IMG/VR virus record: IMGVR_UViG_3300035698_035303
Span: 1-64,000 of that record
DNA: 64,000 bases
DNA from: a virus
Reading direction: 5' to 3' (one strand)
Made by a program: the position numbers and the translations under genes. The notes beneath the pieces are model-generated. The model saw only the letters and a list, made by a program, of their open reading frames with translations, was not told where the DNA came from and did no database searches. Every line of letters begins with the position of its first letter. Position 1 is the stretch's first letter. This document shows, in pieces, positions 35,216 to 63,997 of the stretch.

Positions 35216-35292
35216 AAGACAACAGACCATTAAATGAAGTAGCTGATAATATGAGTTCTGAAAAAGCACGAACTATATTTACACCCAAATAA
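35212..35292 (+). pseudogene. Orphan cargo-leader ORF (26 aa)
   Basis: A 26-codon ORF (MKDNRPLNEVADNMSSEKAR, then TIFTPK). Its first 12 residues match the leader shared by the cargo genes at 55-64 kb, but it has neither the cleavage site nor a payload. It overlaps the preceding stop as ATGA, exactly as several intact leader genes do. It may be a decayed cargo gene whose payload was lost by recombination, or a landing site for new payloads. It lies about 20 kb from the main cassette. Confidence 0.55.
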
Positions 35293-46000: not shown

Positions 46001-46524
46001 CAAAAAGTGAAACAGCGCAAAAAGAGACTATTAACCAACTTATTAAAAAAGATGGGGATGAATCCGATCAAGAACAAATAATAATTGATCAGCCAGCTAA
46101 CCCTACTAGGCTAAAGCAATCTTCTACACCTGATAAAGATAAAAAAGTAAGAACTAAGGAACAAATAGAAGAAGAATTCAAAGTTATGCGTTCAAAATTT
46201 CTTGGAGATGATGGTGAGGAATTACGCGAGGATATGTTGTTTAATGGAATCGACAATAAAACATCGACAATACATCGAAATGGCATTAATCAAAATTTAG
46301 AAGATACTGCAAGAAGGCAAAGAGGACCAAAGTCTAATTGCCATATTGAGCTACTTGCCCACGGTGAACTAGCTCCATTGAATTTAGCAGGTGGTAAATT
46401 AGCCATTACAACTAAAGGACCGTTAATGAGATCTATTCAGGCATTTCGCCAATTACAAAATAGCCAACGAAATGAGTGGTTATTAGGGACTGGGGAAAAT
46501 GATGATAAAGAGATTAAACAGTAA
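43084..46524 (+). CDS. Portal protein, gp20-like, interrupted by an intein
   Basis: A 1146-aa precursor starting at the ATG at 43084 (CAGGAG upstream, ATGA overlap); in-frame sequence before it lies in the previous gene. Extein residues 1-350 and 787-1146 (710 aa joined) match T4-type portals: SALDIYAEESSQKDAWGNVL, YKPYGTSIFDPCRRHYRQL, and the junction SSERRENL | SMQDIRFARTIERVQTEILE. The portal forms the head-vertex ring through which terminase packs DNA and to which the neck binds. The C-terminal 170 aa are charged and not typical of T4. An intein occupies residues 351-786. Confidence 0.85.
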   Translation: MSLLPTFFNDIQQNIDKFGYVGHDDIISAPLTPKDNYHAPIPVHDESDWYQNFMFVGEDRLQRYTDFVGMDAHPLMSSALDIYAEESSQKDAWGNVLQIHTDDQVIKEELEHLLFKRLNINHNLFRIVRETCKYGDKYQYLVLEKNRKGVLFLKDMPVQSVWRLEWQGKLLAFVQQTPAGITPPLDPFSVVHWRIALNQERYKPYGTSIFDPCRRHYRQLVLMEDAMVVYRITRAPERRVFFVNCGRLPTPKAEEYMKKITGRFRKRSIVNPVNGEIDWRSNPLAPDEDFYIPIRDGNDGTRIEQLAGAQNLGEVDDVVWFKDQILAYLKIPRVYLQDTDGGSSERRENLCLDGDTKIALLDGTSPTIKELSEKDEDFWVYSINEHNKVVPGLASGVKLTRSNTEVVEVELDNGEKVISTPDHPFMKRDGTYCKAEDLKSGESLMPLYRKISGVDDDSCLKGYEKVYNPKSGKWPFTHRMVEESLHNQIPKDCVVHHCNFNKRDNSPNNLKVMNTQDHAKYHIELASKNITPEVIAKRNKSIKRFYNTEEGKRKIELTRLAGVENQQKWLKSKKHRDFKSKLRKQRYVPGDAFYDFQHSDKNVELGRERGRLNVINGAISKMIQKAADANRRNDITFDKVVAAAESGGYSRNTLRDHLGCSIGLIIAAIKSNGLTYKEFHRIYIALPRMNYLIKIAKGCHCQNMVDLIKWSKFSKPEIIRSINSYGMKVPEFMKKYCDFTPMDISEQCKNHKVVAVRKLEQKRDTYCMTVKKYHNFALSSGIYVRNSMQDIRFARTIERVQTEILEGITKICIIHLMLRGYNKTRALNFAIQTTSPSYAHERAEQEVESSRLSLADSYFETGFPREYTWERILKLTKRETRKLQKKRRQEDLILAEREAQVEAYRTKATEFYEELYSNKWGLVKDTDGDDDQQTKDTHKSGDVPKTSQEPYSGHGKGKEIEPAREQPDVTAPPKSETAQKETINQLIKKDGDESDQEQIIIDQPANPTRLKQSSTPDKDKKVRTKEQIEEEFKVMRSKFLGDDGEELREDMLFNGIDNKTSTIHRNGINQNLEDTARRQRGPKSNCHIELLAHGELAPLNLAGGKLAITTKGPLMRSIQAFRQLQNSQRNEWLLGTGENDDKEIKQ
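44134..45441 (+). mobile_element. Intein with HNH homing endonuclease in the portal gene
   Basis: A 436-aa in-frame insertion. It starts with Cys in CLDGDTKIALLDG (block A), has STPDHPF with Thr70 and His73 (block B), and ends KKYHNFALSSGIYVRN (blocks F/G), followed by Ser as the +1 extein residue. The residue before the terminal Asn is Arg, where most inteins have His. Residues about 127-175 form an HNH endonuclease (VVHHCNFNKRDNSPNNLKV, then H168 and H172), followed by helical DNA-binding-like segments. It should splice itself out of the portal protein and copy itself into intein-free portal alleles at a highly conserved site. Confidence 0.88.
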
Positions 46525-48753: not shown

Positions 48754-49599
48754 ATGACAGAACAGCAAAGCATTATTGATTTATTAACGGAAACTCGTGG
48801 GGTTCTATCAGAACTTCACAGGTTAGGTCTCCCAGGGCTTGACCCAAGATTACCACCTGAAATATTGGAACATAATCTTTATACAGACCCAAAAGATCAT
48901 ATTCTCTTATTAGAAGAAACTATGGTCCTTGCTCCGTATTTTGATGTTGAAGTCAATGAGTCAATTGACCCTTATGAACAGGCTATGATATTGATGGAGG
49001 CTAACGGGGATGGACGGCTTCTTATGCGTGGGGTTTTCCAACGCGCTGGGAAGAAAAATCAAAATGGTAGAATATATTCCAACGAACTTTTGCAAAGAGA
49101 AGTTAAAAGGTTGCAAGATTCTATCGATGATAACAGACTTGGTGGTGAATTAGACCATCCACAAAGTGCTAAAATTCGCGTCCCTGTCACAAGTCATTTA
49201 ATAACTAAACTATGGATACCTAACAATTCAGATGAGGTTTATGGGGAGTTAACTCCTACTCACAATTCATCTGGTAGGGATTTGTTTAATTTAATAACTA
49301 AAGACAAAATGAGATTAGGCGTTTCAAGTCGTGGTACTGGAACTCTCAAAGAGACAGACAACGGGCTTCTTGTACAGCCTAATTATAATATGATTACTTT
49401 TGATATTGTTGCGGACCCATCAACTCACGGAGCTTTTCCAACTGAAGTTAACAACAGTAACAAAAAAATCGACAAAAAATCAACAACTGAAGAAAAACAA
49501 GATAATAATGATTCCAGTGTAGAATTACTGGAAATAACAACAGAATTAATTACCCGGATGAAAAACGTATTCGGTCAAAGGCCAGGAGATAAAAAATGA
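48754..49599 (+). CDS. Prohead maturation protease, gp21-like
   Basis: A 281-aa serine protease of the T4 gp21 type that removes the scaffold and trims capsid and internal proteins. The family core is clear: RGVFQRAGKKNQNGRIY, then GGELDHP with His135, SHLITKLW, then LGVSSRGTGTL with Ser191/Ser192, and FDIVADPSTHGAF. The N-terminus has candidate self-cleavage sites at EVNE|S (E69) and LME|A (E82), which would free the core domain. The C-terminal 50 aa are Lys/Asn/Gln-rich and probably removed. It overlaps the scaffold gene as ATGA, as fits their shared role. It is the enzyme expected to act on the leaders described further on. Confidence 0.88.
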   Translation: MTEQQSIIDLLTETRGVLSELHRLGLPGLDPRLPPEILEHNLYTDPKDHILLLEETMVLAPYFDVEVNESIDPYEQAMILMEANGDGRLLMRGVFQRAGKKNQNGRIYSNELLQREVKRLQDSIDDNRLGGELDHPQSAKIRVPVTSHLITKLWIPNNSDEVYGELTPTHNSSGRDLFNLITKDKMRLGVSSRGTGTLKETDNGLLVQPNYNMITFDIVADPSTHGAFPTEVNNSNKKIDKKSTTEEKQDNNDSSVELLEITTELITRMKNVFGQRPGDKK

Positions 49600-50855
49600 A
49601 AAAAGTCTTAGAGAATGCACTTGGAGACGTTATAAACGTTCTTGGAGAAGAAAAAGCTTCACTAGTCGCCTTTGTTAGTGAAAAGGTCAAAGAAGCTGAA
49701 GAAAAAGTCGAAAAGATGAAAGGTGACTATGACGATAAAGTTGCTGAATTAAAAAGTGATAAAGAAAAGGCAGTCAAAGAGGCTGAAGATGAAGATGATG
49801 ACGATAAAGTCAAAGAGGCTGAAGAAGAATTTGAAAAGAAAATTGAAAAAGTTAAAGAGTCTTTTGATGCAAAAATTGCTGAAATGAAAGACGACTTTGA
49901 AAATAAAATTAAAGATGAAGCTGACGATGATGACGATGATGACGATGATGACGATGATGACGATGAAGAAACTGACGAAGGTGAACTACCTCCGGCTTTG
50001 AAAAAAGCAATAGAGTTAAAGAAAGCCATCACAAAAAGTAAAAATGAAGCTGACGATGATGACGATGAAGAAACTGATGAAGGTGAATTGCCACCAGCTT
50101 TGAAAAAAGCAATAGCGAAAAAGAAAGCCGAATCAGGAGACGATGAATGTAAAGAATGTGATGACAAAGAAGAAAAAATTGAAAAGCTTGAAAAAGAGGC
50201 TGTAGAAAAAGAAGACGAAATTGAAAAGATTAAAGAGGGATTAGCAGAAAAGGTTAATTCATTTTTAACAAACATCCTCCCTCGTCTACACAACATTGTT
50301 AAAGAAGAAAAAACATTATCTCCAGACAATATGAATGCTGAGAATATTCTCGAAAGCATTAAAACATTGGTTGGAGAAGGTAATTTACCATCCTCGAGCC
50401 TTTCTGAGGAAGTTAATAAAGATGAGTTCAGTGAAAAAATTGCTGAATTTGAAACTAAGTTCGAAGAACTCACAGAAACACAAGAAGATCTCAAGGGGAG
50501 ATTAAGGCGTAAATCTAACAAGCTTAATGAGGGCTTGACTGATAACGCACAACTCAATGCGCAGTTGAAAGTGTGGGAGCTTTGTGCAGATGATCCGGAT
50601 CGTGATTTCATTATGACACGACTTGCCGAATGCGCAACCGTTGATGATGTGGAAGAACAGTTCCCGATTCTCAAGGAAAAAATTAGACGTGATGCTGAAG
50701 AGGATCTTATTGAAGAATTTGGGGACCCCAATTTTGAGGGACCTGGTTCTAACATCAATGAGGAAGTTCCAACAAAGCCAAGTGATTTATCACCTTTGAA
50801 TGAAAGTGACAAAAATAGATTGGCTGAACTTGCTGGGATTATGCCTATTAAGTAA
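49596..50855 (+). CDS. Major scaffold / prohead core protein, gp22-like
   Basis: A 419-aa, extremely acidic coiled-coil protein with the order and character of T4 gp22, which forms the core inside the prohead and is degraded by the protease. Residues 20-105 are Glu/Lys coiled coil. Residues 107-180 hold two tandem copies of an Asp-run followed by EETDEGELPPALKKAI. The C-terminal 100 residues are more globular. Candidate protease sites are VLGE|E (E18), TLVGE|G and others. It is flanked by protease and major capsid genes. The long opposite-strand open frame here is only a consequence of Asp codons. Confidence 0.85.
   Translation: MKKVLENALGDVINVLGEEKASLVAFVSEKVKEAEEKVEKMKGDYDDKVAELKSDKEKAVKEAEDEDDDDKVKEAEEEFEKKIEKVKESFDAKIAEMKDDFENKIKDEADDDDDDDDDDDDDDEETDEGELPPALKKAIELKKAITKSKNEADDDDDEETDEGELPPALKKAIAKKKAESGDDECKECDDKEEKIEKLEKEAVEKEDEIEKIKEGLAEKVNSFLTNILPRLHNIVKEEKTLSPDNMNAENILESIKTLVGEGNLPSSSLSEEVNKDEFSEKIAEFETKFEELTETQEDLKGRLRRKSNKLNEGLTDNAQLNAQLKVWELCADDPDRDFIMTRLAECATVDDVEEQFPILKEKIRRDAEEDLIEEFGDPNFEGPGSNINEEVPTKPSDLSPLNESDKNRLAELAGIMPIK
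49917..50130 (+). repeat. Tandem acidic repeat with variable Asp tract in scaffold gene
   Basis: Two in-frame copies (from 49917 and from 50046) encode EADDDD...EETDEGELPPALKKAI. They differ mainly in the length of a GAT/GAC run: about 14 Asp codons in the first and 5 in the second. Such trinucleotide runs can change length by slippage without breaking the frame. Confidence 0.85.
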
Positions 50856-50897
50856 CACAAGGCACAGACACAAACACTAACGCTTTTAGGAGCAAAC

Positions 50898-52739
50898 ATG
50901 AGTAACACAAACGCATATCGCCAGGTTGGTCGTAGACTAATCGAAAGATGGTATCCTCTATTAGAGGGTCTCAGGGGCGAAGAAAACATCATTAACATGG
51001 CAATACTCTTGGAAAATGAGTGGCGTGAGGGTGGAAACCTTCTCCCAGAATCTGACCAAATTATTGCTGAGTTCACCGCTTCAACTTTGGCTGGTCCTTC
51101 TGGACAGACCCCACAGGTCGCAACATTCAGACATTACCTAATGCCTTTGATTCGAAGAGTATATCCTAACCTATTTACTAACCAACTTGTTGGCGTTCAG
51201 CCAATGACTGGTCCATCAGCTCAGATTTTCTATTTGAAATACTTTTATTCTGGTATCTCAAACATGCAAGACCCTTGGGGAACAACTCCAACAAGTAAGG
51301 GTGGAACTGCTCCTGGTACTGAGTATGGTAACTTTAGTGGAGATTCATGGTTCGTCGATCCATATTACTCCATGCAAACAGTTCGTCGTGAACCTATAGC
51401 TGCATTTGCAGGATCAGATTTTTCTGGTGCGCCAGCCACAGTAACTCATGATATGGTTGCTGCTAACGGTCAGCCTCCTGTTTTTGATAATACTTCAAAA
51501 TGGTATTTCCTTGCAGCAGATGCTAATACATACGCAGTTGCTACAACTGTAACACTTATTGAGTTAACTGGCTTTGTAAATGGTGTAACCCCAGGTTCCG
51601 CTATTACAGCTACATCAATTGCTACTATCAAAGGTACAACCGCATTTACTAATACAGTAACAGGTTGGATTGATAGAACAGGTGCTTCTAGCGCAAATCA
51701 GTGGAACATTGTTACAAGTAATGTTGGTTCCCATGATTTCTTCTTATCCGCCACAGAATCTGCTGCAGCTGTAACTGCTGGATCTGATTACTTGGGTGTT
51801 AATACTGTTACTTATGACTTCAATATGGAAAACAGACCAGAAATGCCTGAACTTTCCTTAGAAATCGCAAGCGATACAGTAGGCGTTCAGACTCGTAAAT
51901 TGCGCACCGTATGGTCCGTTGAGTCTAGCCAAGATATGAAAGCTATGCATCAAATTGATGCTGAAAAAGAGCTTATTAGTCTTCTAGCTGCTGAACTAGC
52001 TGCTGAGATTGATCGTGAAACTTTGAATAACCTTATCATGAATGCTGGACAAAGACGCGATTACAACTATTCCCATCCTGGAATCGTTGGTGGTTTTGCT
52101 CAAGCAAATGGTGCTGGTTACTTGAACTGGGATCAGCAAGCAAGTATTCCTGCTGCCGGTGCTGGAGCATGGTTCCCCGTACCAGGATCTGGTAATTACG
52201 ATGATCGTAACAAATCATTGATGTATCAAACAATTGAAATGGCTAATGACATTTATCGCCAATCGCTTCGTGGTTCTGCTAACTGGATTGTTACTTCCCC
52301 AAGTATCGCCAGCAAGTTTGAAGCAATGAGTGAATTCGAATCCACTGCAACTTCTGAGACTCTATACAATATTGGTATTCAGGAAAGTGGCATCTTGGCA
52401 AGTAAGTTTAAGTTGATTAAAGACCCTCTATTCCCTGAAGATTTAATTCTCATGGGTTATAAAGGCCCTTCATTTATGGACAGTGGTTACTTCTATTGCC
52501 CATACGTACCAATTCAGCTTACTCCAACAGTTGTTGACCCACGTACCTTCAATCCTGTAAAAGGTGTAATGACTCGTTACGGCAAATTGATGGTTGAAAA
52601 TGGGGAGAGAATGTACGGACTTATTAAGGTTGACAATCTTAATTCAGTTGGTAGTTCAACTCCTGCAGGGTTCCCAATCCAGACCAGCTCGACTGTAAGT
52701 GGCAGCGATATGATCAGTGGCGATACGAACCTAGTATAA
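50898..52739 (+). CDS. Major capsid protein, gp23-like
   Basis: A 613-aa T4-type major capsid protein with HK97 fold. The family stretch is clear around residues 80-115: FRHYLMPLIRRVYPNLFTNQ, LVGVQPMTGPSAQIFYLK. Further matches are ENRPEMPELSLEIASDTVGV with TRKLRTVWSVE, and PSIASKFEAM near the C-terminus. The N-terminal 58 residues are helical and end QIIAE|F, the likely protease cut (T4 gp23 loses 65 residues). Residues about 190-300 hold a beta-rich insertion. The gene has a good ribosome-binding site (TTAGGAG) and ends at a strong hairpin terminator, fitting very high expression. Confidence 0.92.
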   Translation: MSNTNAYRQVGRRLIERWYPLLEGLRGEENIINMAILLENEWREGGNLLPESDQIIAEFTASTLAGPSGQTPQVATFRHYLMPLIRRVYPNLFTNQLVGVQPMTGPSAQIFYLKYFYSGISNMQDPWGTTPTSKGGTAPGTEYGNFSGDSWFVDPYYSMQTVRREPIAAFAGSDFSGAPATVTHDMVAANGQPPVFDNTSKWYFLAADANTYAVATTVTLIELTGFVNGVTPGSAITATSIATIKGTTAFTNTVTGWIDRTGASSANQWNIVTSNVGSHDFFLSATESAAAVTAGSDYLGVNTVTYDFNMENRPEMPELSLEIASDTVGVQTRKLRTVWSVESSQDMKAMHQIDAEKELISLLAAELAAEIDRETLNNLIMNAGQRRDYNYSHPGIVGGFAQANGAGYLNWDQQASIPAAGAGAWFPVPGSGNYDDRNKSLMYQTIEMANDIYRQSLRGSANWIVTSPSIASKFEAMSEFESTATSETLYNIGIQESGILASKFKLIKDPLFPEDLILMGYKGPSFMDSGYFYCPYVPIQLTPTVVDPRTFNPVKGVMTRYGKLMVENGERMYGLIKVDNLNSVGSSTPAGFPIQTSSTVSGSDMISGDTNLV

Positions 52740-54767: not shown

Positions 54768-55178
54768 ATGGCCCAGACATTATTAAATATTAAAAAAGAT
54801 GGTCAAGGTTCATCGTATTCAGCCACAATAAGCCTTCGTTGTACCGATATGGGACATCAAATTCTATTAGAACAACATGGTCCAGTCGAGGTTGAATGTG
54901 GTGGTTCTTTTACGGAGACAATTGCTGGCCCAACTGTTGTTAATGTAGTTTTGTCTTCTACCCTTAGAGATTTCCCTGATCAATTCGCTTATACACAAAC
55001 TTTTACCGCCGATCAATTTGCTGGTGATCACCAAATCGCTATGAATCAGCTAGATGCTTGGGTACAACATATGACAAAATCAGATGGTATTATACAAACG
55101 GCATTAGACGTATTATGGACATCAGTTGGTGGTGTTGATTACGATGATGATGATACAGTGGTATTAACCACACCATAA
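54768..55178 (+). CDS. Hypothetical beta-rich virion protein (136 aa)
   Basis: A 136-aa protein starting MAQTLLNIKKDGQGSSYSAT, probably a beta-sandwich (EVECGGSFTETIAGPTVVNV), with a helical stretch and an acidic tail (DYDDDDTVV). It lacks a cargo leader. The end of its coding sequence is duplicated just downstream. It may be a capsid decoration or neck protein; no family is recognised. Confidence 0.5.
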   Translation: MAQTLLNIKKDGQGSSYSATISLRCTDMGHQILLEQHGPVEVECGGSFTETIAGPTVVNVVLSSTLRDFPDQFAYTQTFTADQFAGDHQIAMNQLDAWVQHMTKSDGIIQTALDVLWTSVGGVDYDDDDTVVLTTP

Positions 55179-55219: not shown

Positions 55220-55711
55220 ATGAAAACTAGTAAAAAATTGAATGAAATTATTGACAGATTTGAGAAAGAACTTGATGAGTTTATTGGAATTAACGAGGCG
55301 CAGGAGTTAACTCCTACTATAATGAAAAAAATAGCCACAAATCTTAGCAAAGTAATAAAAGATCAGAATCCCTGGCGTATTGCAAAATTTAAGGTTACTA
55401 AGGATGGGGATACTTTTAAGGCTGTATCTGACGATTATGCAGATAAATACAATAAAATGTTTGTGGACAAAGAAATAGCTAAATACCCATCAAATGCCGA
55501 ATATTTAATGCGACAAAAAAAGTATTATCATGAAACCAAAAAAGTCATTCGCAAAGGTGATGAACGTAATTATTCTTATGTAGTTGACTTAGTACAAGTA
55601 ATTGTAAATAAAAACGGGACCCATCGGGATAAATCAGCATTTATTGTATTTGATTCAAAAGGAAACATGAAATCTGTTAAGCAATATAGCCCTGAGCCTT
55701 TTGGGGTTTAA
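55220..55711 (+). CDS. Putative capsid-cargo protein with long leader (163 aa)
   Basis: A 163-aa protein. The leader (26 aa) starts MKTSKKLNEIIDRFEKELDE and ends FIGINE|A, a prohead-protease-type site. It is the long variant of the leader family and has the same length as that of the next gene. The payload is a lysine-rich alpha/beta protein (ATNLSKVIKDQNPWRIAKFK) similar in layout to the payload at 55742, so the two are probably paralogues. No enzyme motif. Likely packed into the head and trimmed there. Confidence 0.55.
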   Translation: MKTSKKLNEIIDRFEKELDEFIGINEAQELTPTIMKKIATNLSKVIKDQNPWRIAKFKVTKDGDTFKAVSDDYADKYNKMFVDKEIAKYPSNAEYLMRQKKYYHETKKVIRKGDERNYSYVVDLVQVIVNKNGTHRDKSAFIVFDSKGNMKSVKQYSPEPFGV

Positions 55712-55741
55712 TATCAATTAAATTTATTTAAAGGATAAATT

Positions 55742-56203
55742 ATGAAAAACAACATAACATTAGATGAAATTATTGATAGGTTTGGGGCTGATGTTGGCGA
55801 TAACTTTAAAGTTAATGAAGCGAACGAGCCATATAATACCACCGACCCAAAAGCAGTAGTAACAAATATGCCCCTTAGTGAAATGGCTAAAAATCTTTCA
55901 AAGACAGTCTCAAAAATGATTGGTATGCCTGTGACGTTCAAATTAACTGTTAAGAATAATATTATTAACATAGAGTCAAACGACTTGGCACCAAAAGTTA
56001 AACCCAAATTATTTAAACGGTTAATAATTAAGAGTGACGGTGGTAGTGTTAGGCCTCACGAACAAGACAAAGTATTATGCTATCTTGCCCAGTTGTATTA
56101 TCGGTGGGATCAATACGGTGGCGGTTCTAATGGGTTAAACATTGGTCTTTTTCAGATTAATCAAGAGGGATTCATTATTGGTTATAGAGAAGATTTAAAG
56201 TAA
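55742..56203 (+). CDS. Putative capsid-cargo protein with long leader (153 aa)
   Basis: A 153-aa protein. The 26-residue leader starts MKNNITLDEIIDRFGADVGD and ends FKVNE|A. The payload begins with a helix (MAKNLSKTVSKM), then alternating strands (VTFKLTVKNNIINIES), as in the gene before it. No known domain or catalytic residues. AAAGGA precedes the ATG. Its function inside the virion or after injection is unknown. Confidence 0.55.
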   Translation: MKNNITLDEIIDRFGADVGDNFKVNEANEPYNTTDPKAVVTNMPLSEMAKNLSKTVSKMIGMPVTFKLTVKNNIINIESNDLAPKVKPKLFKRLIIKSDGGSVRPHEQDKVLCYLAQLYYRWDQYGGGSNGLNIGLFQINQEGFIIGYREDLK

Positions 56204-56215
56204 AAGGACATTAAA

Positions 56216-56491
56216 ATGAAAGACAATAGAACATTAAACGAAGTGACTGAAAATTTTGGGATGAGTGAAGGCGTGGACAAGATTTCTATACCTGGTACGG
56301 ATTTTGTTTTTACTATTCCTCTGTTTTATAAGGATAAACCAGCTAAAAAGAAATCTGGGCATGTCCAACATAAATCGGGTCATCCACGCGGCGAATGGTT
56401 TGTTAACAAAAAAGGTAAAGTGACTTTCTTAGATGATTGGGATAAAGAGAAGAAAATGGCTGCATTCATAACGAAGGAAATAGGGCTATGA
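56216..56491 (+). CDS. Putative capsid-cargo protein with standard leader (91 aa)
   Basis: A 91-aa protein with leader MKDNRTLNEVTENFGMSE|G. The payload is a small basic beta-rich protein with a His/Lys/Gly segment (KKKSGHVQHKSGHPRGEWFV) that could bind metal or nucleic acid. The stop overlaps the ferritin gene as ATGA, so the two should be made together. No family is recognised. Confidence 0.55.
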   Translation: MKDNRTLNEVTENFGMSEGVDKISIPGTDFVFTIPLFYKDKPAKKKSGHVQHKSGHPRGEWFVNKKGKVTFLDDWDKEKKMAAFITKEIGL

Positions 56492-57108
56492 AAGACAATA
56501 GAGACCTAAACGAAATTGCTGGTAATTTTGGAATCAATGAATCTGAATCTGAAATTGATACCGATGAATGCGAAATTGATACCGATGATTTGTCTGAATC
56601 AATTATAGAGGAAGCTTCAACAACTCCAATGCCTGATGACGTATTTAAAGCTTTAAATGAACAGGTTAAGAATGAGTTTGAAGCGTTTTATGCATATTAC
56701 GGTATGGCTAATTCTATGGACTCTATTGGATTTAAGGGTATGGCTTGTTGGCTTCGTAAGTCAGCAAAAGAGGAATTAAACCATGCATATAAAGTTAATG
56801 ATTATATCCTTGAGCGTGGCAAAGATGTGAAGCTAATTCCTATTCAACCGTCAAAAGAAAAATGGAATACCCCAAAAGCAGCTTTTGAGTCAGCAAACAA
56901 GCATGAAATTAGTGTTACTGCTAATTACAATAACTTGAAAAAATTAGCTGAAAGTGGCGGCGATCATCAAACTTGTGAATTCATTAACTTCTTCCTTCGT
57001 GAGCAAACAGAGGAAGAAGACAAAACTTTTGAAATTTGCCAAAAGCTTGATAAAGCTGGCAATGATCCAGCAGCTCTTTTGCAAATTGATAATCATCTTG
57101 GTTGTTAA
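56488..57108 (+). CDS. Ferritin with a capsid-cargo leader
   Basis: A 206-aa protein. Residues 52-204 match bacterial non-haem ferritin (FtnA type), which oxidises Fe(II) and stores it in a 24-subunit shell. All ferroxidase ligands align: E63 (LNEQVKNEFEAF), E96 and H99 (KSAKEELNHA), E140 (KHE), Q173 and E176 (REQTEEE). Unlike cellular ferritins it starts with the shared leader, MKDNRDLNEIAGNFGINE|S, followed by an acidic linker with a repeated EIDTD and a second candidate site, IIEE|A (after E42), just before the ferritin fold. I infer targeting to the prohead and trimming to mature ferritin. It overlaps both neighbours by one to four bases. Confidence 0.85.
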   Translation: MKDNRDLNEIAGNFGINESESEIDTDECEIDTDDLSESIIEEASTTPMPDDVFKALNEQVKNEFEAFYAYYGMANSMDSIGFKGMACWLRKSAKEELNHAYKVNDYILERGKDVKLIPIQPSKEKWNTPKAAFESANKHEISVTANYNNLKKLAESGGDHQTCEFINFFLREQTEEEDKTFEICQKLDKAGNDPAALLQIDNHLGC

Positions 57109-57440
57109 TGAAATTAACAAACATCATATTATACGAAGAGCCAGATGTTTGTATGCCCATGATGGAGTTTGTAGAAGTTTGGGTTGATGAAAATGGTGAT
57201 GAAATCAATGAAATATCACCTATAAGAAAACGTGTAAGAAAAAAACGTAAATGGAAAATAAGGTATTTTTGCCCTAAAGGGTATAGACATAAATCCCCAC
57301 CAGGCAAGCCCAGACAGAAGGGGAAATGCGTTAAAATACCTCCTGCGGTACTTGCTAAGATGAAAAGAAACGCACGCCGTGGGGCTAAAATACGAGGCAA
57401 AAAAGCAGCCAGAACAAGAAAAAGACTTTATGGTAAATGA
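57108..57440 (+). CDS. Putative capsid-cargo protein, strongly basic (110 aa)
   Basis: A 110-aa protein from the ATG at 57108 (TAATG overlap with ferritin). It begins MKLTNIILYE|E, a short second-type leader, then has an acidic piece ending EINE|I (E35). What follows is extremely basic: KRVRKKRKWK, CPKGYRHKSPPGKPRQKGKC, KRNARRGAKIRGKK. The Cys residues (in FCPKG and GKC) may bind metal. After cleavage this would be a DNA-binding peptide, like basic internal proteins packed with phage DNA. It sits directly behind ferritin. Confidence 0.55.
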   Translation: MKLTNIILYEEPDVCMPMMEFVEVWVDENGDEINEISPIRKRVRKKRKWKIRYFCPKGYRHKSPPGKPRQKGKCVKIPPAVLAKMKRNARRGAKIRGKKAARTRKRLYGK

Positions 57441-57452
57441 TAAGGATTAATT

Positions 57453-58142
57453 ATGATTAAATTAAGACCAGCGCCTCTCCCAACAATAACTGTAAAAGAT
57501 GTTTTGAAAGATTTTTCGGATATAGGACCACAAACCAAAGATTTTGATTTTGGTAATCCACTTGGGTATCTTAGGGAAGATGACGACGATGACGAAGAAG
57601 AAACCACGGTTGGAGACGCTGACCCTGAGGACTTTCCGGATGATACAGTTGTCCCAAAACACTTATCTATTGAGGGAGCAAGTAGAATAATGAAGCTTAT
57701 TCGTGCTCACCAAAAAGAAATGCATTCCCCATCCGAAGTAGGAGAGTTTAAGTATGAATTACGCGGCAAAGATGTAACTTTTCGCGTAAAAGATTTTATG
57801 GAGGGTGTCATTGTTACAATAAATGACCCCGATGTATCCACCGCTAAAACGTTTAAGTTTCCTTTGGATTGGCAAGGTGGTAAGGTTATGGACTCAATTA
57901 ATACAGCTATAGCGGAATTAGAACTGGGGGAAGCAACCAATAAATTTACTACTGATGATGTTGGTTTCGATATTCGTGATATGGCGACTGATTTAATTTG
58001 GCTTGGGAAGAAAGGCAGTGAAATTGCCCGATTCCTTGATGGGGATAAAAATTTTCCCCAGATGAAAATTCTTCTGAAACAAGCGAATGATCAAGCTAAC
58101 AGAATGATGAAGCAAATACCAAAGATTTTAAAAAGGATGTGA
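57453..58142 (+). CDS. Hypothetical head-region protein with protease-type sites (229 aa)
   Basis: A 229-aa protein with an N-terminal region (MIKLRPAPLPTITVKDVLKD) unlike the leader family, then an acidic tract (REDDDDDEEETT) and an alpha/beta segment. A candidate site at LELGE|A (E160) would separate a helical C-terminal domain of about 69 aa. No known domain is visible. AAGGA precedes the ATG. It may be a two-part internal protein. Confidence 0.5.
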   Translation: MIKLRPAPLPTITVKDVLKDFSDIGPQTKDFDFGNPLGYLREDDDDDEEETTVGDADPEDFPDDTVVPKHLSIEGASRIMKLIRAHQKEMHSPSEVGEFKYELRGKDVTFRVKDFMEGVIVTINDPDVSTAKTFKFPLDWQGGKVMDSINTAIAELELGEATNKFTTDDVGFDIRDMATDLIWLGKKGSEIARFLDGDKNFPQMKILLKQANDQANRMMKQIPKILKRM

Positions 58143-58146
58143 TATA

Positions 58147-58401
58147 ATGGATAAAAAAACAATTGAAGCATTTAAGGTTTTTATGATTGGCGAAGCTAAT
58201 ATTGAAAATACTGATGATTTCATAGACCGTGCTATGGATGTATTCCAAGCTAACATTAAGTTGGGCAAGGAAGGGTCGAAGGCTCTCCGATTAGTTGATT
58301 ATGATAAGAATATCGATAAAATGGCTTATTCCCTGAAACAAGCTAAAAAAGAAATGTTGAGCACTATTGCAATAATCGATAAAGCATTAAAGATTAAGTA
58401 A
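58147..58401 (+). CDS. Putative capsid-cargo protein, small helical (84 aa)
   Basis: An 84-aa protein. The leader-like start MDKKTIEAFKVFMIGE|A has the expected hydrophobic-x-Glu-Ala ending. The payload is entirely helical and charged. The stop of the previous gene lies only four bases upstream, so they are probably translationally coupled. No family is recognised. Confidence 0.5.
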   Translation: MDKKTIEAFKVFMIGEANIENTDDFIDRAMDVFQANIKLGKEGSKALRLVDYDKNIDKMAYSLKQAKKEMLSTIAIIDKALKIK

Positions 58402-58436
58402 CCGGAAATACAATAATATTCCTGTGGATAAAGAAC

Positions 58437-58751
58437 ATGAAAGATAACCGATTATTAAATGAAATTGCTGAGGCTTTCGGTCTTGACCCAAAAGACGAAA
58501 AGATTAAAACAGTAAAAGATCATATAAAACCTCTTTTAGAAGTTTTAGAAAAAAGGTTTAAATTAAAAGTAAAATATATTGACGTTCATAATGCAGCTAT
58601 AAGTATTTTTGAAGGAAGAAAAAAAGTTGGTGGTTTTCAATTAGGCATCATGAATAGAACGCCTATTCACAATTATTCAGGTATAGCAGGAGAATATTCT
58701 ACTAGTTTAGAATATGCTTATAGAATATACAAAAAGAAAAATAAATTATAA
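58437..58751 (+). CDS. Leader-family protein lacking the usual cleavage site (104 aa)
   Basis: A 104-aa protein whose first 15 residues are the family leader (MKDNRLLNEIAEAFG), but the following sequence is LDPKDEK instead of [IV]NE-A. The payload has an alpha/beta pattern (FKLKVKYIDVHNAAISIFEG). If packed it may keep its leader. It ends in TAATG, overlapping the neck-like gene downstream. No known domain. Confidence 0.5.
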   Translation: MKDNRLLNEIAEAFGLDPKDEKIKTVKDHIKPLLEVLEKRFKLKVKYIDVHNAAISIFEGRKKVGGFQLGIMNRTPIHNYSGIAGEYSTSLEYAYRIYKKKNKL

Positions 58752-59464
58752 TGGGTAAAGGCATTTACAAAGAAATAACAGATGATGACAAGAAGCTTGA
58801 TAAGCAAAAGCCTTCTATATCAAACTTCGGTGGTCAGCATTTCCCTGATAAGGTAAATTACTATCGCCCTGCATTTGAGGGATCAGGTATTGCAGATGGG
58901 ACATTTCGTTTATTTGATATGGCTAATCCTGATGATGCTTTGTTTGATGCAGTAGAGCAAGAGCAAATTGCTATTACATCGCCGCCAATTCTTTTATATA
59001 GATTAAATACCGATCGTACTGAAGTTGATGAAGTAACTGGTGAATCGCAAATACGTTTTTATAACAAATTTGATAGGATTGTTGGTAATTATGAGGCACC
59101 GGATGTCGAACAACAATTATCTCGTTTCGGTATTGCGGAACAAGAAGAAATTGAAATTATTTTTAATCTTAATTATTTGTTTGTAGAAGTTGGTGGACAA
59201 ATAGATGAAGGCGATTTAATCAGAACTGTTGACGGCAAGATGTGGGAAGTAATCGATAGTGTTGTTGGGGATGAAGCTCTTTGGACTAAGGGACATAACA
59301 AGTGCGTTCTTAAACGTGTTCAGGGAGAGGGTTATTTAATCCCTGATGATAAAAACCCTGGAAAATACATTGATATAAGTGATAGCCCTAATACCGGAAG
59401 TCGAACAGGTCGTGATAAAAAAGGCGAAGATAGCGATTTAGGCAGTGGTCATGAACCACTTTAA
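58751..59464 (+). CDS. Putative neck protein (gp14-like) inside the cargo cassette
   Basis: A 237-aa protein without a cargo leader. Residues about 60-200 (ITSPPILLYRLNTDRTEVDE, then IRFYNKFDRIVGNYE and GDLIRTVDGKMWEVIDSVVG) resemble neck or head-closure proteins of T4-like phages in being beta-rich with a 'PP[IV]xxYR' entry strand. The C-terminal 40 residues are disordered (SPNTGSRTGRDKKGEDSD). It is the one probable structural gene among cargo genes. The gp14 comparison is tentative. Confidence 0.45.
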   Translation: MGKGIYKEITDDDKKLDKQKPSISNFGGQHFPDKVNYYRPAFEGSGIADGTFRLFDMANPDDALFDAVEQEQIAITSPPILLYRLNTDRTEVDEVTGESQIRFYNKFDRIVGNYEAPDVEQQLSRFGIAEQEEIEIIFNLNYLFVEVGGQIDEGDLIRTVDGKMWEVIDSVVGDEALWTKGHNKCVLKRVQGEGYLIPDDKNPGKYIDISDSPNTGSRTGRDKKGEDSDLGSGHEPL

Positions 59465-59473
59465 GGAGATAAT

Positions 59474-59947
59474 ATGAAAGACATTAGAACATTAAACGAA
59501 GTTGCTGAACAATTTGGTATCAATGAAGCTGATGATATTAAGGAAATGGGAGCTAAAGAATTTATGACAAGTATTCGCGATGCTTTGGCAAAAGGAAATA
59601 TGCCTAGAATTGCTAATACTTCTGGAGCAGCCATTCGTGGTTGGACAAATTCAATAGGCTCTACTGGTTTTAGCGTTAAGGATAAGGGTAAAGATATTGA
59701 TATTCATATTGTAATAAGTGGGAAAAAAGCTGGGATTAAATATAAAAGAATTTATGACAGGGATGGAAGTGAGTACGATGAACCCGCAAATCAGGATAGT
59801 CTCCATCCAAAGATTAAACAAATTATAAATAAACTTGGAATTCAAGTTAAGAATATTAGGTCAAGTGGCCATTCAGGGTCTTTTGATGATGATGTGACAT
59901 ATAATATTATTGCCAAACGACCTAAATGGCTTATTTCAAAAAATTAA
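59474..59947 (+). CDS. Putative capsid-cargo protein (157 aa)
   Basis: A 157-aa protein with leader MKDIRTLNEVAEQFGINE|A. The payload is lysine/glycine-rich alpha/beta (SGAAIRGWTNSIGSTGFSV; KDIDIHIVISGKKAG). The leader is nearly identical at DNA level to that of the next gene, although the payloads are unrelated, which indicates exchange of payloads behind a fixed leader. No known domain. AAGGAG precedes the ATG. Confidence 0.55.
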   Translation: MKDIRTLNEVAEQFGINEADDIKEMGAKEFMTSIRDALAKGNMPRIANTSGAAIRGWTNSIGSTGFSVKDKGKDIDIHIVISGKKAGIKYKRIYDRDGSEYDEPANQDSLHPKIKQIINKLGIQVKNIRSSGHSGSFDDDVTYNIIAKRPKWLISKN

Positions 59948-59956
59948 GGGCACAGA

Positions 59957-60343
59957 ATGAAAGACATCAGAACATTAAACGAAGTTGCTGAACAATTTGG
60001 TGCTGTTAATGAGGATTCTCTTTTTGATGCTGAATCAGCTGATGAATGGGAAAATAAAATAGAAAAAGGTATAAAAGTCCCTTTTATTAACGTTGGCAAG
60101 TCTACTCTGGGTGGCCCTAAAAATATTGCTCTAATGATAAGGCTATCACTTGATCCACAAAAAGACTGGAGTAATAATATATTTCATAATTCAAGATATG
60201 CTCAATTGAGTTTATCTAATGATGGCAAACTTGAAATGTTTTCTAGCTCATATAATATAAAGAATATGAGGAAAACAAAGGTAAAGACAGCAGATGACGC
60301 AATAAAGAAAATAAATGTTTGGGCTAAAAAGGAGAATTCATGA
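59957..60343 (+). CDS. Putative capsid-cargo protein (128 aa)
   Basis: A 128-aa protein with leader MKDIRTLNEVAEQFGAVNE|D, one residue longer than the standard. The payload begins acidic (SLFDAESADEWENKIEKG) and continues as an alpha/beta protein with Asn/Ser-rich strands. No motif. It overlaps the next gene as ATGA. Confidence 0.55.
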   Translation: MKDIRTLNEVAEQFGAVNEDSLFDAESADEWENKIEKGIKVPFINVGKSTLGGPKNIALMIRLSLDPQKDWSNNIFHNSRYAQLSLSNDGKLEMFSSSYNIKNMRKTKVKTADDAIKKINVWAKKENS

Positions 60344-61002
60344 AAGATATTAGAACATTAAATGAAATAGCTGAACGATTTAATATTAACGAAGGTAAAT
60401 TTGATAAATTTCGTCGTAGTAATTCAATTCCTACTAATGCGGGAGATTGGACTAAATTAGCTAAACAACTTGACGCTGGCATTAATGAATTGGATGATAT
60501 TGCAATTAGTTTTGGTAGTTTTAAAGATTTCGAAGCTTTATATGCAGCTTATAAAAGCCCGTTTGATATATATAATGAGTCTTTAGCTATAACTAATAAA
60601 CTTATTAAAATAATAAAACAAGTTGTCAGTAGTGCAAGTAATATGAGTAAAGGCCAATTTTACTCATTAATTAAAAAATTGGAAGAAGATACTGAGGATA
60701 CTAATGTTGACGAAGGTATGTACCAAAGATTTCGTCGTGGTAATTCAATTCCTACCAATGCTGGTTACGGATGGGGAGCCCTCTGTAAGAAATTAGATGC
60801 TGGAATTCTTGAGCTTGATGCTATCGCTGATGATCTTGGTTATGAAGACTTTGAAGATCTAGATGCAAGCTATAGTAATCCTGCTTATATTCTGAGTTCG
60901 TCTTTGAAAAGTAGATTTATTAAATCTATTAAAAAAGTTGTTAATAAAGGGAATAACATGAGCCCTTCTAAACTTGAGAAAATGATTATAGACTTAAAAT
61001 AG
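60340..61002 (+). CDS. Putative capsid-cargo protein made of two duplicated units (220 aa)
   Basis: A 220-aa protein with leader MKDIRTLNEIAERFNINE|G. Two copies of one helical payload follow: residues 19-125 (GKFDKFRRSNSIPTNAG...) and 126-220 (GMYQRFRRGNSIPTNAG...). The second copy is preceded by NVDE|G at exactly the place where the first is preceded by INE|G. This repeated site is internal support for protease processing into two similar mature proteins. FRR and RFRR give each a basic start. Function unknown. Confidence 0.6.
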   Translation: MKDIRTLNEIAERFNINEGKFDKFRRSNSIPTNAGDWTKLAKQLDAGINELDDIAISFGSFKDFEALYAAYKSPFDIYNESLAITNKLIKIIKQVVSSASNMSKGQFYSLIKKLEEDTEDTNVDEGMYQRFRRGNSIPTNAGYGWGALCKKLDAGILELDAIADDLGYEDFEDLDASYSNPAYILSSSLKSRFIKSIKKVVNKGNNMSPSKLEKMIIDLK

Positions 61003-61013
61003 GAATATTATTA

Positions 61014-62360
61014 ATGAATTTAAAACAAATATTGGTAGAAGGTCCAACAGGCGTCCCATATACTGAGAAAACATTTAAACAAACTATGAATAGTGTTTTG
61101 ACTAAAGAAGGTCTTGGTAGTGAACGTGGAGCATTGCTTACTACTAAAAATGGTATATTTGTGGAAGTTAGACCTTGTTATGAAGATGGTAAGGCTAATG
61201 TTAAAGTATGGGCTTTTAACCCTGATAAACCTAATTCAGATTATCTTGGACGTTGGAAACATCAAAAGTCATTTAATAATATTAAAGAGGCTTACGCATT
61301 TGCCCAATTACATGTTGAACAAAACATATTAGAAGCAAAAGAAGAAGCTGGTAAATTGGCCCCTAAAGCCAAAAAAGCCTTAGCACTTTGGAAAAAAGAG
61401 TACAAAGAGGCTGAGACCCCTATCAAGAAAAAAGGTGGTAAAACATCATGGGGTCGATCTTATTTCTATAAGACATCAATACAAAAACAAATTTCTGATG
61501 GGTTCAAACAAGAGTTTGATGATATAAATAAATATTATTTCAAAGGCTCTGGCTTTAAAGTAGTTCCTGATGGGTCTCCTTGGGATGATTTTAAATCATG
61601 GCCAAAAACAAGCTATTATTGGGTACCGTTTAAAATTGTATCAGAGAATGGAATATCTGAGGTAAAAAAAAATCCATCCAAGGGAACTTGGAATATGAAA
61701 GGTAATGGGTATTCCGTTGTAGCTTATGTAAGTCAGAATAACGATGGTGAAATGAAATCTTCTTCTATGATGCTTACTCCGGGTGAAGGAGCAACGGAGT
61801 TTAATATTTGGAACGATGAGAAATCGTCTCAAAAAGGAGAGTTCTGGTGGGATAAGAATGATATTCAACGAGGTATCAGAAATCTTAATGCTAAGAAACC
61901 AAATTTTGTAGAGACTAAAGCTATGACATCTGATATGAATAAGTTAGTCAAAATTATTGGTTCTGCTTTTAATGCCTATAAAGTTGATGCTGTGAAAAAA
62001 TCCAAGGTTTCTGAGGGTACTGCTAGAAAAGAAATGGACCCAATTAATAAACAGCCTTTGAAGAATATGATTTATAAAAAGATAACCAAAATTACCAAAG
62101 GCATTTACAAAGATCAATATTGGAATGGTGTTAATAAGATTTGGGATGTATTTAATGATTTGGGATTGGACTGGAATATCCAGAAGGCAGAATACGATCA
62201 CAAGAATTCGCCACCAACTTATAAGATTTGGTACATAGAAATTAACTTTACTAACAAGGCTGGGAAACCCCAGAAGATTTTTGGGAATGTCACGGCGGCA
62301 GGAGCTGGGACAGTCAAGGACCCGCTTGATGCTTATGATGTAAACCTAGTAATGGGATAA
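61014..62360 (+). CDS. Putative large capsid-cargo protein (448 aa)
   Basis: A 448-aa protein with a short second-type leader, MNLKQILVE|G. A further candidate site, NILE|A (E107), would split an N-terminal domain of about 98 aa from a 341-aa remainder. The larger part is rich in Lys, Trp, Tyr and Asn (YYWVPFKIVSENG, GEFWWDKNDIQRGIRNL) and has no recognised domain. It is the largest payload in the cassette and could be an injected enzyme or inhibitor, but no catalytic motif is seen. Confidence 0.5.
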   Translation: MNLKQILVEGPTGVPYTEKTFKQTMNSVLTKEGLGSERGALLTTKNGIFVEVRPCYEDGKANVKVWAFNPDKPNSDYLGRWKHQKSFNNIKEAYAFAQLHVEQNILEAKEEAGKLAPKAKKALALWKKEYKEAETPIKKKGGKTSWGRSYFYKTSIQKQISDGFKQEFDDINKYYFKGSGFKVVPDGSPWDDFKSWPKTSYYWVPFKIVSENGISEVKKNPSKGTWNMKGNGYSVVAYVSQNNDGEMKSSSMMLTPGEGATEFNIWNDEKSSQKGEFWWDKNDIQRGIRNLNAKKPNFVETKAMTSDMNKLVKIIGSAFNAYKVDAVKKSKVSEGTARKEMDPINKQPLKNMIYKKITKITKGIYKDQYWNGVNKIWDVFNDLGLDWNIQKAEYDHKNSPPTYKIWYIEINFTNKAGKPQKIFGNVTAAGAGTVKDPLDAYDVNLVMG

Positions 62361-62397
62361 TTTAAAGTTACCCGCAATATTTAAAGAGGATAATATT

Positions 62398-62604
62398 ATG
62401 GATTTAGCAAATTTGGTGAATGAATGCGAAGTTGATGAAGCAACTGATTATGAACCTATTGATACGCTTCTTGATGTTATTGTAGCCACATTGAAGAAAA
62501 ATAAATTTAGTGTATGGCCAGATAAAACAAAAGGGAAATCTTTATTAATTCCCATTAAAGATAAAGAAGGTAACTCTTTTACCGTTAAGATTGTAAAAAG
62601 CTAA
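62398..62604 (+). CDS. Putative capsid-cargo protein, very small (68 aa)
   Basis: A 68-aa protein with a leader-like start MDLANLVNECEVDE|A (VDE|A as in the polyprotein). The payload, about 54 aa, has the pattern helix then three strands (IDTLLDVIVATLKKNKFSVW; LLIPIKDKEGNSFTVKIV). AGAGGA precedes the ATG. No family is recognised. Confidence 0.5.
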   Translation: MDLANLVNECEVDEATDYEPIDTLLDVIVATLKKNKFSVWPDKTKGKSLLIPIKDKEGNSFTVKIVKS

Positions 62605-62630
62605 TTTAATCTCCATTTTAAGGGGAGTTA

Positions 62631-63149
62631 ATGAAAGACAATAGATGTTTAAATGAAGTCGCTGAGTTATTTGGGGTCAATGAGGCTTTGAAGACACCAG
62701 CGATGATGAAAATTGAATTTGATATTTTTGTTAGCTCTGACCAAATGGGTTATTACAGGAATCAAGCCGCAGATGACATAGCTGGCTCAGGCGGTTACAG
62801 CATAAGATCAACCAAGGACCGTAAATATACCGTTGAATTCTTGACAAAAGACGAAAATAAATTTTTACAAGCCTTCAAGAAAACTAAATCTAATGACAAG
62901 GTTATCAAGATTCATAAGTCAAAACCAAGCCCATTAAAAAGAGAAAGTCTCAATTTCAATTATATAAAAGACGAAAAACAATTAAAAGCAATTGAATCTG
63001 ACTTGAAAAAGTCAGGTGCCGTAAAAATTAAAAGGACTGTTAATTGGGACAAAGGTGAGGCATATTTTTATTTTGATTGCGTGGGATTACCTGATGTTTG
63101 GAGAGCTATGCTTAAAACTAAATCAGGTAGGTATATAGACGAGGAATAG
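62631..63149 (+). CDS. Putative capsid-cargo protein (172 aa)
   Basis: A 172-aa protein with leader MKDNRCLNEVAELFGVNE|A. The payload is alpha/beta with two similar halves (MMKIEFDIFVSSDQMGYYR and LNFNYIKDEKQLKAIESDLK), possibly two ferredoxin-like folds. No catalytic motif. AAGGGGAG precedes the ATG. Confidence 0.55.
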   Translation: MKDNRCLNEVAELFGVNEALKTPAMMKIEFDIFVSSDQMGYYRNQAADDIAGSGGYSIRSTKDRKYTVEFLTKDENKFLQAFKKTKSNDKVIKIHKSKPSPLKRESLNFNYIKDEKQLKAIESDLKKSGAVKIKRTVNWDKGEAYFYFDCVGLPDVWRAMLKTKSGRYIDEE

Positions 63150-63159
63150 GACTTGATAA

Positions 63160-63567
63160 ATGAATTTAACACAACTTCTTCTTGAATCCCCTATGACGGT
63201 CTATCAACTTCGTAAAAATAGCAAATCCATGCTTAAAGATACTACTCTGGAGTATGTTAAGGAAAGACGTGGCAAAGATAAGGTACAAGGTCCTTTTAGA
63301 GAGTTCTCTTTTAAAGCTGGCAAAAAAGATTATAAAACACGTGTTAGGGTATTTGGAGAACAATCATCAAGAAGTCCGGTATGGGTCCATTGTACATGCC
63401 CTAACTTTAGATATCAATGGGATTGGGTTTTAACTCAAAAAGAAAGTAGTACTCTTTTTAAAACTAAGGACAAACAGCCAAATGTTCGCAACCCTAAGAA
63501 GAATAAAAGTGTATGCAAGCATGTTGCCAGCGCCCTTGATTGGTTGAAAAAGGATAGAGGAATATGA
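63160..63567 (+). CDS. Putative capsid-cargo protein with SWIM zinc-finger motif (135 aa)
   Basis: A 135-aa protein with a short leader, MNLTQLLLE|S. Residues 74-125 fit the SWIM zinc-finger pattern CxC...CxH: C78 and C80 in VWVHCTCPNFRYQWDWVL, and C119 and H121 in KSVCKHVASAL. SWIM domains bind DNA or proteins. The rest is lysine-rich. A small SWIM protein behind a cargo leader would be carried with the DNA into the host. It overlaps the next gene as ATGA. Confidence 0.6.
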   Translation: MNLTQLLLESPMTVYQLRKNSKSMLKDTTLEYVKERRGKDKVQGPFREFSFKAGKKDYKTRVRVFGEQSSRSPVWVHCTCPNFRYQWDWVLTQKESSTLFKTKDKQPNVRNPKKNKSVCKHVASALDWLKKDRGI

Positions 63568-63920
63568 AAGATAACAGAACATTGAACGAAGTGGCTGAAC
63601 GATTTGGTATCAATGAGGCTAAAGAAGAAAGAGAAATTAGTCCAGAAGCCGAAAAGGTTTATAAGGTACTGATTAATAATGCTAAAGAGGGTTACAGGAT
63701 TATCCATAAGGGTAAAACAATTTGGGGTGGTTTGGGCAATCGGGCTGGTCTACACAGCTATGCAGATACCATTATCGGTGATAAATGGAGGAAGTCTGGC
63801 CCTCGTTTTGAAAAGAAACTAAGGAAACTTACTGGCGATTTTGAATTACATGATTATCGATCTATCAGTAGAGATAAGGGTCGCTGGGTTAAGATTAAAA
63901 CTTTTAAAGTAACTGCATGA
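63564..63920 (+). CDS. Putative capsid-cargo protein (118 aa)
   Basis: A 118-aa protein with the clearest standard leader, MKDNRTLNEVAERFGINE|A. The payload is basic, with helix-strand pattern (ISPEAEKVYKVLINNAKEGY; GDKWRKSGPRFEKKLRKLTG). It overlaps the SWIM gene as ATGA. No domain is recognised. Confidence 0.55.
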   Translation: MKDNRTLNEVAERFGINEAKEEREISPEAEKVYKVLINNAKEGYRIIHKGKTIWGGLGNRAGLHSYADTIIGDKWRKSGPRFEKKLRKLTGDFELHDYRSISRDKGRWVKIKTFKVTA

Positions 63921-63964
63921 TAATTTACCTTTAACCGACTGAATAAGGACAAAAGAATATAAAA

Positions 63965-63997
63965 GTGAAAGATGACAGAGTATTAAAGGAATGTTGA
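63965..63997 (+). pseudogene. Decapitated cargo leader (10 aa) at the window end
   Basis: A GTG-started 10-codon ORF, MKDDRVLKEC, then TGA. It repeats the first ten residues of the leader with an AAGGAC site upstream, but stops before the cleavage site. It is likely a truncated or frameshifted member of the family, and indicates that the cassette may continue beyond the window. Confidence 0.5.

Follow-up and report, generated by a model that had tools for sequence, protein, structure and literature searches.

A shared N-terminal leader on ten mostly unrelated proteins in the head module of an uncultured T4-superfamily phage, a candidate capsid-targeting sequence

The stretch of DNA analyzed here, referred to as the window, comprises bases 1–64,000 of the 64,638-base IMG/VR virus record IMGVR_UViG_3300035698_035303; the contig runs on to 64,638. 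It encodes a T4-superfamily virion block with a large terminase (35668), a portal (42991), a gp21-like protease (48754), a major capsid protein (MCP; 50898) and a connector protein (53610), genes being named by their start positions. Within and beside this block lie ten genes whose products begin with one shared N-terminal peptide (the leader), behind which different protein bodies (the cargos) follow. In the list below, a slash marks the putative cleavage point and pI is the isoelectric point.

55220–55711, plus strand: leader gene; leader of 26 residues, MKTSKKLNEIIDRFEKELDEFIGINE/A; cargo pI 9.6
55742–56203, plus strand: leader gene; leader of 26 residues ending KVNE/A; cargo pI 9.3
56216–56491, plus strand: leader gene; leader of 18 residues ending MSE/G; cargo pI 9.7
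56488–57108, plus strand: ferritin with the leader MKDNRDLNEIAGNFGINE/S; an acidic linker extends to about residue 49, and residues 50–205 form the complete ferritin
58437–58751, plus strand: leader gene with the Glu site absent at residue 18; IAE/A at residue 12 only
59474–59947, plus strand: leader gene; leader of 18 residues ending INE/A; cargo pI 9.6
59957–60343, plus strand: leader gene; leader of 19 residues ending VNE/D; cargo residues 41–124 match phrog_3308 (E 1.5e-17)
60340–61002, plus strand: leader gene; leader of 18 residues ending INE/G; tandem-duplicated cargo
62631–63149, plus strand: leader gene; leader of 18 residues ending VNE/A; cargo pI 9.5
63564–63920, plus strand: leader gene; leader of 18 residues ending INE/A; cargo pI 10.0

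A characteristic of these genes is the start MKxxxxL[ND]E[IV], which a preliminary description of this DNA had attributed to all ten. Each of the ten open reading frames (ORFs) does begin in this way, and a search with ^MK.{4}L[ND]E[IV] retrieved exactly these 10 of the 58 tiled ORFs. Shuffling of residues 2–31 gave a mean of 0.0015 matches (maximum 1 in 2000 trials), and the motif matched once at 18,269 positions within proteins. The leader consensus is MKDNRTLNEVAERFGINE/A. The leader ends in [IVM][NS]E followed by A, G, S or D, with the Glu at residue 18 in six genes, at residue 19 in 59957 and at residue 26 in 55220 and 55742; the site described earlier is thus present in nine of the ten leaders and, as also described, absent from the leader end of 58437. 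The residue following the cut (P1') is small or Asp in all nine. The leaders of 55220 and 55742 are eight residues longer and still end INE/A and VNE/A, so that the position of the site is kept despite variable spacers. Such a site occurs in 15% of internal 28-residue windows, and since the leaders are homologous, the nine sites do not amount to nine independent trials. The leaders are acidic (pI 4.3–5.1). The proposal that they form an amphipathic helix held in part: moments were above the shuffled mean in nine of the nine variants tested, but only modestly (62nd–98th percentile). Single-sequence structure models of 62631 and 59474 displayed an isolated helix at residues 5–13 and 7–13, respectively, at low confidence (predicted local distance difference test scores of 60 and 55), which points weakly to such a helix.

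The bodies behind the leader are mostly unrelated, as had been noted from the sequence, with no pair of leader-bearing bodies reaching E 0.1. The mature cargo has a pI of 9.3–10.0 in 8 of the 10 leader genes, while a pI above 9 was observed in 6 of 36 other genes (Fisher p 4e-4). Profile searches yielded no confident family match for cargos other than those of 56488 and 59957. Homologues of the 59957 cargo in cyanophages are stand-alone, leaderless proteins of 81–88 residues that start at the domain. The 60340 cargo consists of two copies of one domain, the second preceded by VDE/G at residue 125; each copy follows a hydrophobic-x-Glu/Gly site, so the protease might release both and split 60340 into two products.

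The cargo of 56488 is a full-length four-helix ferritin domain (PF00210, E 4e-34). Residues 50–205 align with residues 6–161 (of 164) of the Thermotoga maritima ferritin 1z4a (E 3e-36, 45% identical), and residues 1–49, made up of the leader and the acidic linker, constitute an extra N-terminus. The six positions that form the ferroxidase centre of ferritins (E63, E96, H99, E140, Q173 and E176) are all kept in the alignment. The complete ferritin domain and the leaderless homologues of the 59957 cargo together indicate that the leader was added onto domains already complete in themselves. The related records searched yielded no ferritin, and the other IMG/VR ferritins found are only 25–30% identical to 56488 and lie outside any leader cassette. 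A ferritin cage is about 12 nm across; the assembled cage would be too wide for a contractile tail tube, and the ferritin would therefore stay in the head or travel as subunits. We speculate that it could be a multivalently tagged cargo that acts in the head or moves as subunits. A ferritin-like protein has been reported from mass spectrometry of Vi01-like phages (PMC10892097).

The leader genes stand close to the following genes of the head module, three of which are leaderless anchor genes conserved in related phages.

48754–49599, plus strand: gp21-like prohead protease; phrog_207, E 2e-41; GELDHP and GVSSRG motifs
49596–50855, plus strand: very acidic scaffold-like protein, encoded between the protease and the MCP; three relatives have a homologue at this position
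50898–52739, plus strand: MCP, gp23-like; phrog_138, E 7e-74
54768–55178, plus strand: conserved anchor gene, leaderless; left edge of the first insertion run; homologues in relatives
58751–59464, plus strand: conserved anchor gene, leaderless; between the two insertion runs; homologues in relatives
63160–63567, plus strand: conserved anchor gene with a CxC...CxH motif, leaderless; right edge of the second run; 38% identical to a relative's gene (E 8e-30)

The catalytic His and Ser motifs of the protease, GELDHP and GVSSRG, align with GELNHP and GVSSRG of T4 gp21, and its gene lies 5.6 kb upstream of the leader-gene cassette; it is presumed to be the leader peptidase. The scaffold-like protein (pI 4.3) is presumed to be the core that the leaders would bind. 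The MCP contains IIAE/FT, and its clade keeps a hydrophobic-x-Glu before FT[AG]S, near the cleavage region of T4 gp23; this is consistent with the same protease specificity class, though the P1' residue differs. A 449-residue antisense ORF (49727–51076, minus strand) overlies the acidic scaffold gene and is most likely a composition effect and not a gene.

A near-identical phage was not found among the GenBank phage records searched, in which the closest phage capsid proteins are about 30% identical, the top two belonging to uncultured huge phages of 595 kb and 484 kb. Closer relatives are present in IMG/VR, namely L010 (capsid protein 65% identical), L113 (60%) and L193–L195 (connector protein about 55%). 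A search of bacterial genomes with the MCP for host clues gave no match. The portal gene (42991–46524) is interrupted by an insert that is in frame, looks like an intein and includes an HNH endonuclease region; phrog_213 matches here in three stretches, alongside HNH families. The T4 late promoter TATAAATA has 8 plus-strand and 6 minus-strand sites in the window, unrelated to gene starts.

Comparison with these relatives revealed that the leader genes are insertions at junctions of a conserved T4-type head/neck module where L113 and L193 have almost no genes or none. In both relatives, the homologues of 54768 and 58751 are neighbours; in the window, eight genes separate the two, five of them leader-bearing. 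Between 58751 and 63160, the window has six, of which four bear the leader, while L193 has no gene there and L113 one small ORF. At the junction before the terminase, L113 has no gene, L010 has five, three of them (by inspection) with its own leader, and the window holds leader remnants; L010 holds own-leader genes at one of the window's insertion-run junctions as well. The anchor gene 63160 was considered as a short-leader cargo and rejected, its conservation in relatives marking it as a core gene. The remaining genes at these junctions with an N-terminus of interest are as follows.

34745–35215, plus strand: may be a degenerate leader gene; starts at a GTG preceded by TTGGAGG; N-terminus VVTKDNRGVEQVLKGFIGE/S with an acidic cargo; shortly before the terminase block
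35212–35292, plus strand: leader-only ORF of 26 residues, MKDNRPLNEVADNMSSEKARTIFTPK (leader plus short tail); directly upstream of the terminase block
58147–58401, plus strand: small inserted gene, MDKKTIEAFKVFMIGE/A; homology to 57453, in the C-terminal part of the latter
61014–62360, plus strand: inserted gene with the short N-terminus MNLKQILVE/G; pI 9.5
62398–62604, plus strand: small inserted gene, N-terminal sequence MDLANLVNECEVDE/A

Among these, 35212 is probably a leader-gene remnant and 34745 likely a degenerate relative of the leader genes. The N-terminus of 61014 is possibly a second leader type and that of 62398 possibly another leader. The adjacent genes 57453–58142 and 58147–58401, in the first insertion run, have homologous parts (40% over 70 residues, E 3e-6).

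The internal proteins of phage T4 enter the prohead core via a 10-residue leader, are cut by gp21 after a short Glu-ending motif and are then injected, and in T4-related phages different bodies occur behind the same kind of leader (PMC9026906, PMC3012670, PMC12373910); 10 residues are enough for T4 capsid targeting (PMC9026906). As read from the T4 genome, the leaders are MKTYQEFIAE/A in IPII and IPIII and MKTFKEFTSTTTPVSTITE/A in IPI (10–19 residues, a length similar to the 18–26 of the window), and mature IPII and IPIII have pI values of 9.6 and 9.7. The two systems thus have the following in common: (i) a short N-terminal leader on unrelated, mostly basic proteins, (ii) a leader end of the form hydrophobic-x-Glu/Ala, (iii) a gp21-family protease in the head module and (iv) variable loci. 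They differ in the leader itself, since inspection of MKDNRTLNEVAERFGINE and MKTYQEFIAE shows nothing in common but the initial M-K and the final Glu, in copy number (at least 10 in one contig vs three), in the position of the genes within the head/neck block and in the inclusion of a ferritin. By this analogy, the best reading is that the window leaders work like those of the T4 internal proteins, but with a sequence of their own and in a larger set, as members of the same functional class and not of the same sequence family.

Two further systems are informative. In phiKZ and SPN3US, several head proteins likewise have N-terminal propeptides removed by a gp21-related protease, but the SPN3US propeptides are often longer than 100 residues, lack a single shared short leader and have a different protease site (PMC5694885). 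T4 Alt, an ADP-ribosyltransferase with propeptides that is packaged, processed by the protease and injected, provides a model for an enzyme cargo (PMC9026906), whereas a leader-bearing ADP-ribosyltransferase is unconfirmed in the window phage. The last ORF of the contig (64051–64638; L009:10052-10639) starts MKLKTVIKVEA and contains LYRGMS...KSVAKSYA, which is ADP-ribosyltransferase-like only by eye.

We were able to examine other phages for similar arrays. A search of related genomes with a profile of the window leaders, suggested in the preliminary description, returned no convincing match at the N-termini of other loci, and the leader DNA pattern was found in no other contig of IMG/VR. In L010, several genes share a different, similar-looking N-terminus, RTVDDLLREW, with WGVEP/S in one; its leader-type genes include an AstE/AspA-type hydrolase (PF24827, E 2e-7). 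In L193, the products of three neighbouring genes have starts resembling MSSINEVFGNAYADLLIDE/A. Across 94 non-redundant T4-like loci, chosen via protease or capsid genes and hence biased to that neighbourhood, unrelated protein pairs had N-terminal segments in common in 119 of 13,277 comparisons, and internal segments in 16 of 12,237, 10 of 9,271 and 12 of 6,476; the window forms the largest shared-N-terminus group among the 94 and supplies a large part of the excess. Other T4-like loci in IMG/VR carry leaders of the MIKLKELLNE or MKKSEIRxMIKEEL type. The 484-kb huge phage LR756508 has 21 genes with an LRxIIREE-type N-terminus (MKLTERKLRRIVKEEI-type; a mean of 0.04 after shuffling and no match in 2,712 internal windows). 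Most of them lie around its protease and capsid genes, and their bodies are mutually unrelated; about 20 further genes have an MKLKxLLxE start, giving about 41 genes with two leader types (L012–L032, ~152–338 kb). A literature search on the IIREE-type leader returned nothing relevant. In the MIKLKELLNE-type loci and in LR756508, as in the window, many unrelated proteins near the protease, scaffold and MCP share one N-terminus, whereas the leader sequences differ, and in LR756508 only 2 of 21 leader cargos are basic. Leader-to-leader homology across phages is statistically unsupported, and what recurs is the arrangement.

Several side observations were made in these phages. At least 13 short-leader proteins of LR756508 belong to a single divergent family in which R, S-x-F-A and E are conserved and which, by eye, resembles ADP-ribosyltransferases, an identity that is unconfirmed; for this family and for the 64051 ORF, no ADP-ribosyltransferase match was obtained in Pfam, PHROGs or PDB sequences, the R-S-E-like pattern being seen only by eye. 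The LR756508 prohead protease (L012:4508-6232) has an in-frame intein-like insert in the middle of a conserved region. Four genes at L175:10430-14550 are near-identical over their first 30 residues (FLESLKGxGQDxLIESxKxGFxxCFE), another shared N-terminus.

The leaders were aligned at the protein and DNA level, as had also been proposed, and proved conserved where their flanks are not. Codons 1–14 are on average 74% identical in DNA between genes. In the flanks, taken as the 42 bases before the leader and the 120 after it, identity is only about 30%, close to the chance level. That 59474 and 59957 are nearly identical over these 14 codons might suggest recent duplicates of one gene, still undiverged. 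This is the least probable of the explanations considered: downstream DNA is at chance, the cargos match different families or none and, among the eight core leaders, silent sites are strongly diverged (pS 0.59, pN/pS 0.26), so that the recent-duplicate reading is already contradicted by pN/pS and the flank comparison. The conserved 5' segment could instead be a DNA or RNA element that serves either as a target at which recombination shuffles genes or as a signal for the start of translation. Identity does start at the ATG, and shared segments could aid cargo exchange by recombination; the strong divergence of silent sites while amino acids are kept nevertheless indicates that the leader peptide itself is under selection, the 42 upstream bases are unconserved and Rfam gave no match. 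We consider such an element very improbable; judged by pN/pS and the flanks, the leader is neither newly duplicated nor a promoter nor the scar of a recombination.

If the peptide is what is selected, it might address its proteins to another place in the infected cell (a replication compartment, a membrane or a host partner) unrelated to the head. The scaffold and the leaders are both acidic, and simple charge attraction therefore fails to explain core binding. Even so, every leader gene is located within the virion-structure block or next to it, at head/neck junctions and upstream of the terminase, and their layout is the same as that of the proven T4 capsid-targeting sequences (PMC9026906), which leaves this an improbable account. 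Somewhat less improbable, though still unlikely, is a permanent docking helix that fixes accessory proteins to head, neck or tail and is never removed, hydrophobic-x-Glu marking only the helix end. It would suit 58437, which keeps the helix without the site, the interleaving of the cassette with conserved anchor genes near the head-tail connector gene 53610 and the frequency of such sites in internal windows. It sits poorly with a site position kept in nine leaders across variable spacers, with a small or Asp P1' in all nine, with ferritin and cyanophage-type domains that begin well after the site and with a gp21-type protease encoded nearby.

We therefore regard it as likely that the products of the ten genes are internal head proteins, the phage being a T4-superfamily myophage, and that the shared N-terminal peptide is a capsid-targeting leader cut by the gp21-like protease. 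Prohead loading is the best supported reading on the basis of the T4 IPI–III architecture, the gp21-family protease, the basic cargos, the insertion into the head module, the leader-tagged ferritin and the leaderless cargo homologue. The earlier proposal of prohead loading with gp21-like cleavage is supported in part: architecture, protease motifs and basic cargos agree with it, while core binding, packaging, cleavage, injection and cargo functions are matters that we infer from the sequence. Weighing against it are (i) 58437, whose sole site-like string is IAE/A at residue 12, with none at residue 18, (ii) the Asp after the site Glu of 59957, (iii) the ferritin and 60340 cargos, which are not basic, and (iv) the profile of the window leaders, which did not match the leaders of relatives significantly (best E 0.04, in a distant locus). 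Under prohead loading, the leader would bind the scaffold core during prohead assembly and enclose any protein fused to it; the protease would cut after hydrophobic-x-Glu, and the leader would leave with the core fragments. The mature cargo would remain in the head with the DNA, and most of it would probably be injected. The basic character and the diversity of the cargos are what one would expect of DNA-associated proteins that are injected to take over the host or to counter its defences.

It had been claimed that T-even phages have only a few such proteins and that the number here is far larger. T4 itself does have three, but at least 10 internal proteins have been reported across T-even phages (PMC12373910); the window is a large example but not a unique one, given the arrays in several other T4-like phages and the larger one in the huge phage. 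The wider pattern to which it belongs, in uncultured T4-like phages, appears to be under-described. More tentatively, and with rather less than even confidence, we suggest that T4-superfamily and huge phages of the environment employ capsid address tags, each lineage its own, as a plug-in code of general use. Tens of different proteins would in this way be loaded into the head, whole enzymes and a ferritin whose ferroxidase centre is intact among them, for DNA protection or host delivery. A packaged ferritin, being an enzyme that handles iron and carries an address for the head, would be a head cargo of a new kind as far as our searches show, and the tags could serve as new encapsidation signals. 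The three internal proteins of T4 are all inhibitors of restriction enzymes (PMC12373910), and each array may thus be a list of candidate counter-defence or takeover proteins. If the reading is true, the leader would let the injected protein arsenal of such phages be read from sequence, any tagged protein being predicted to travel in the head.

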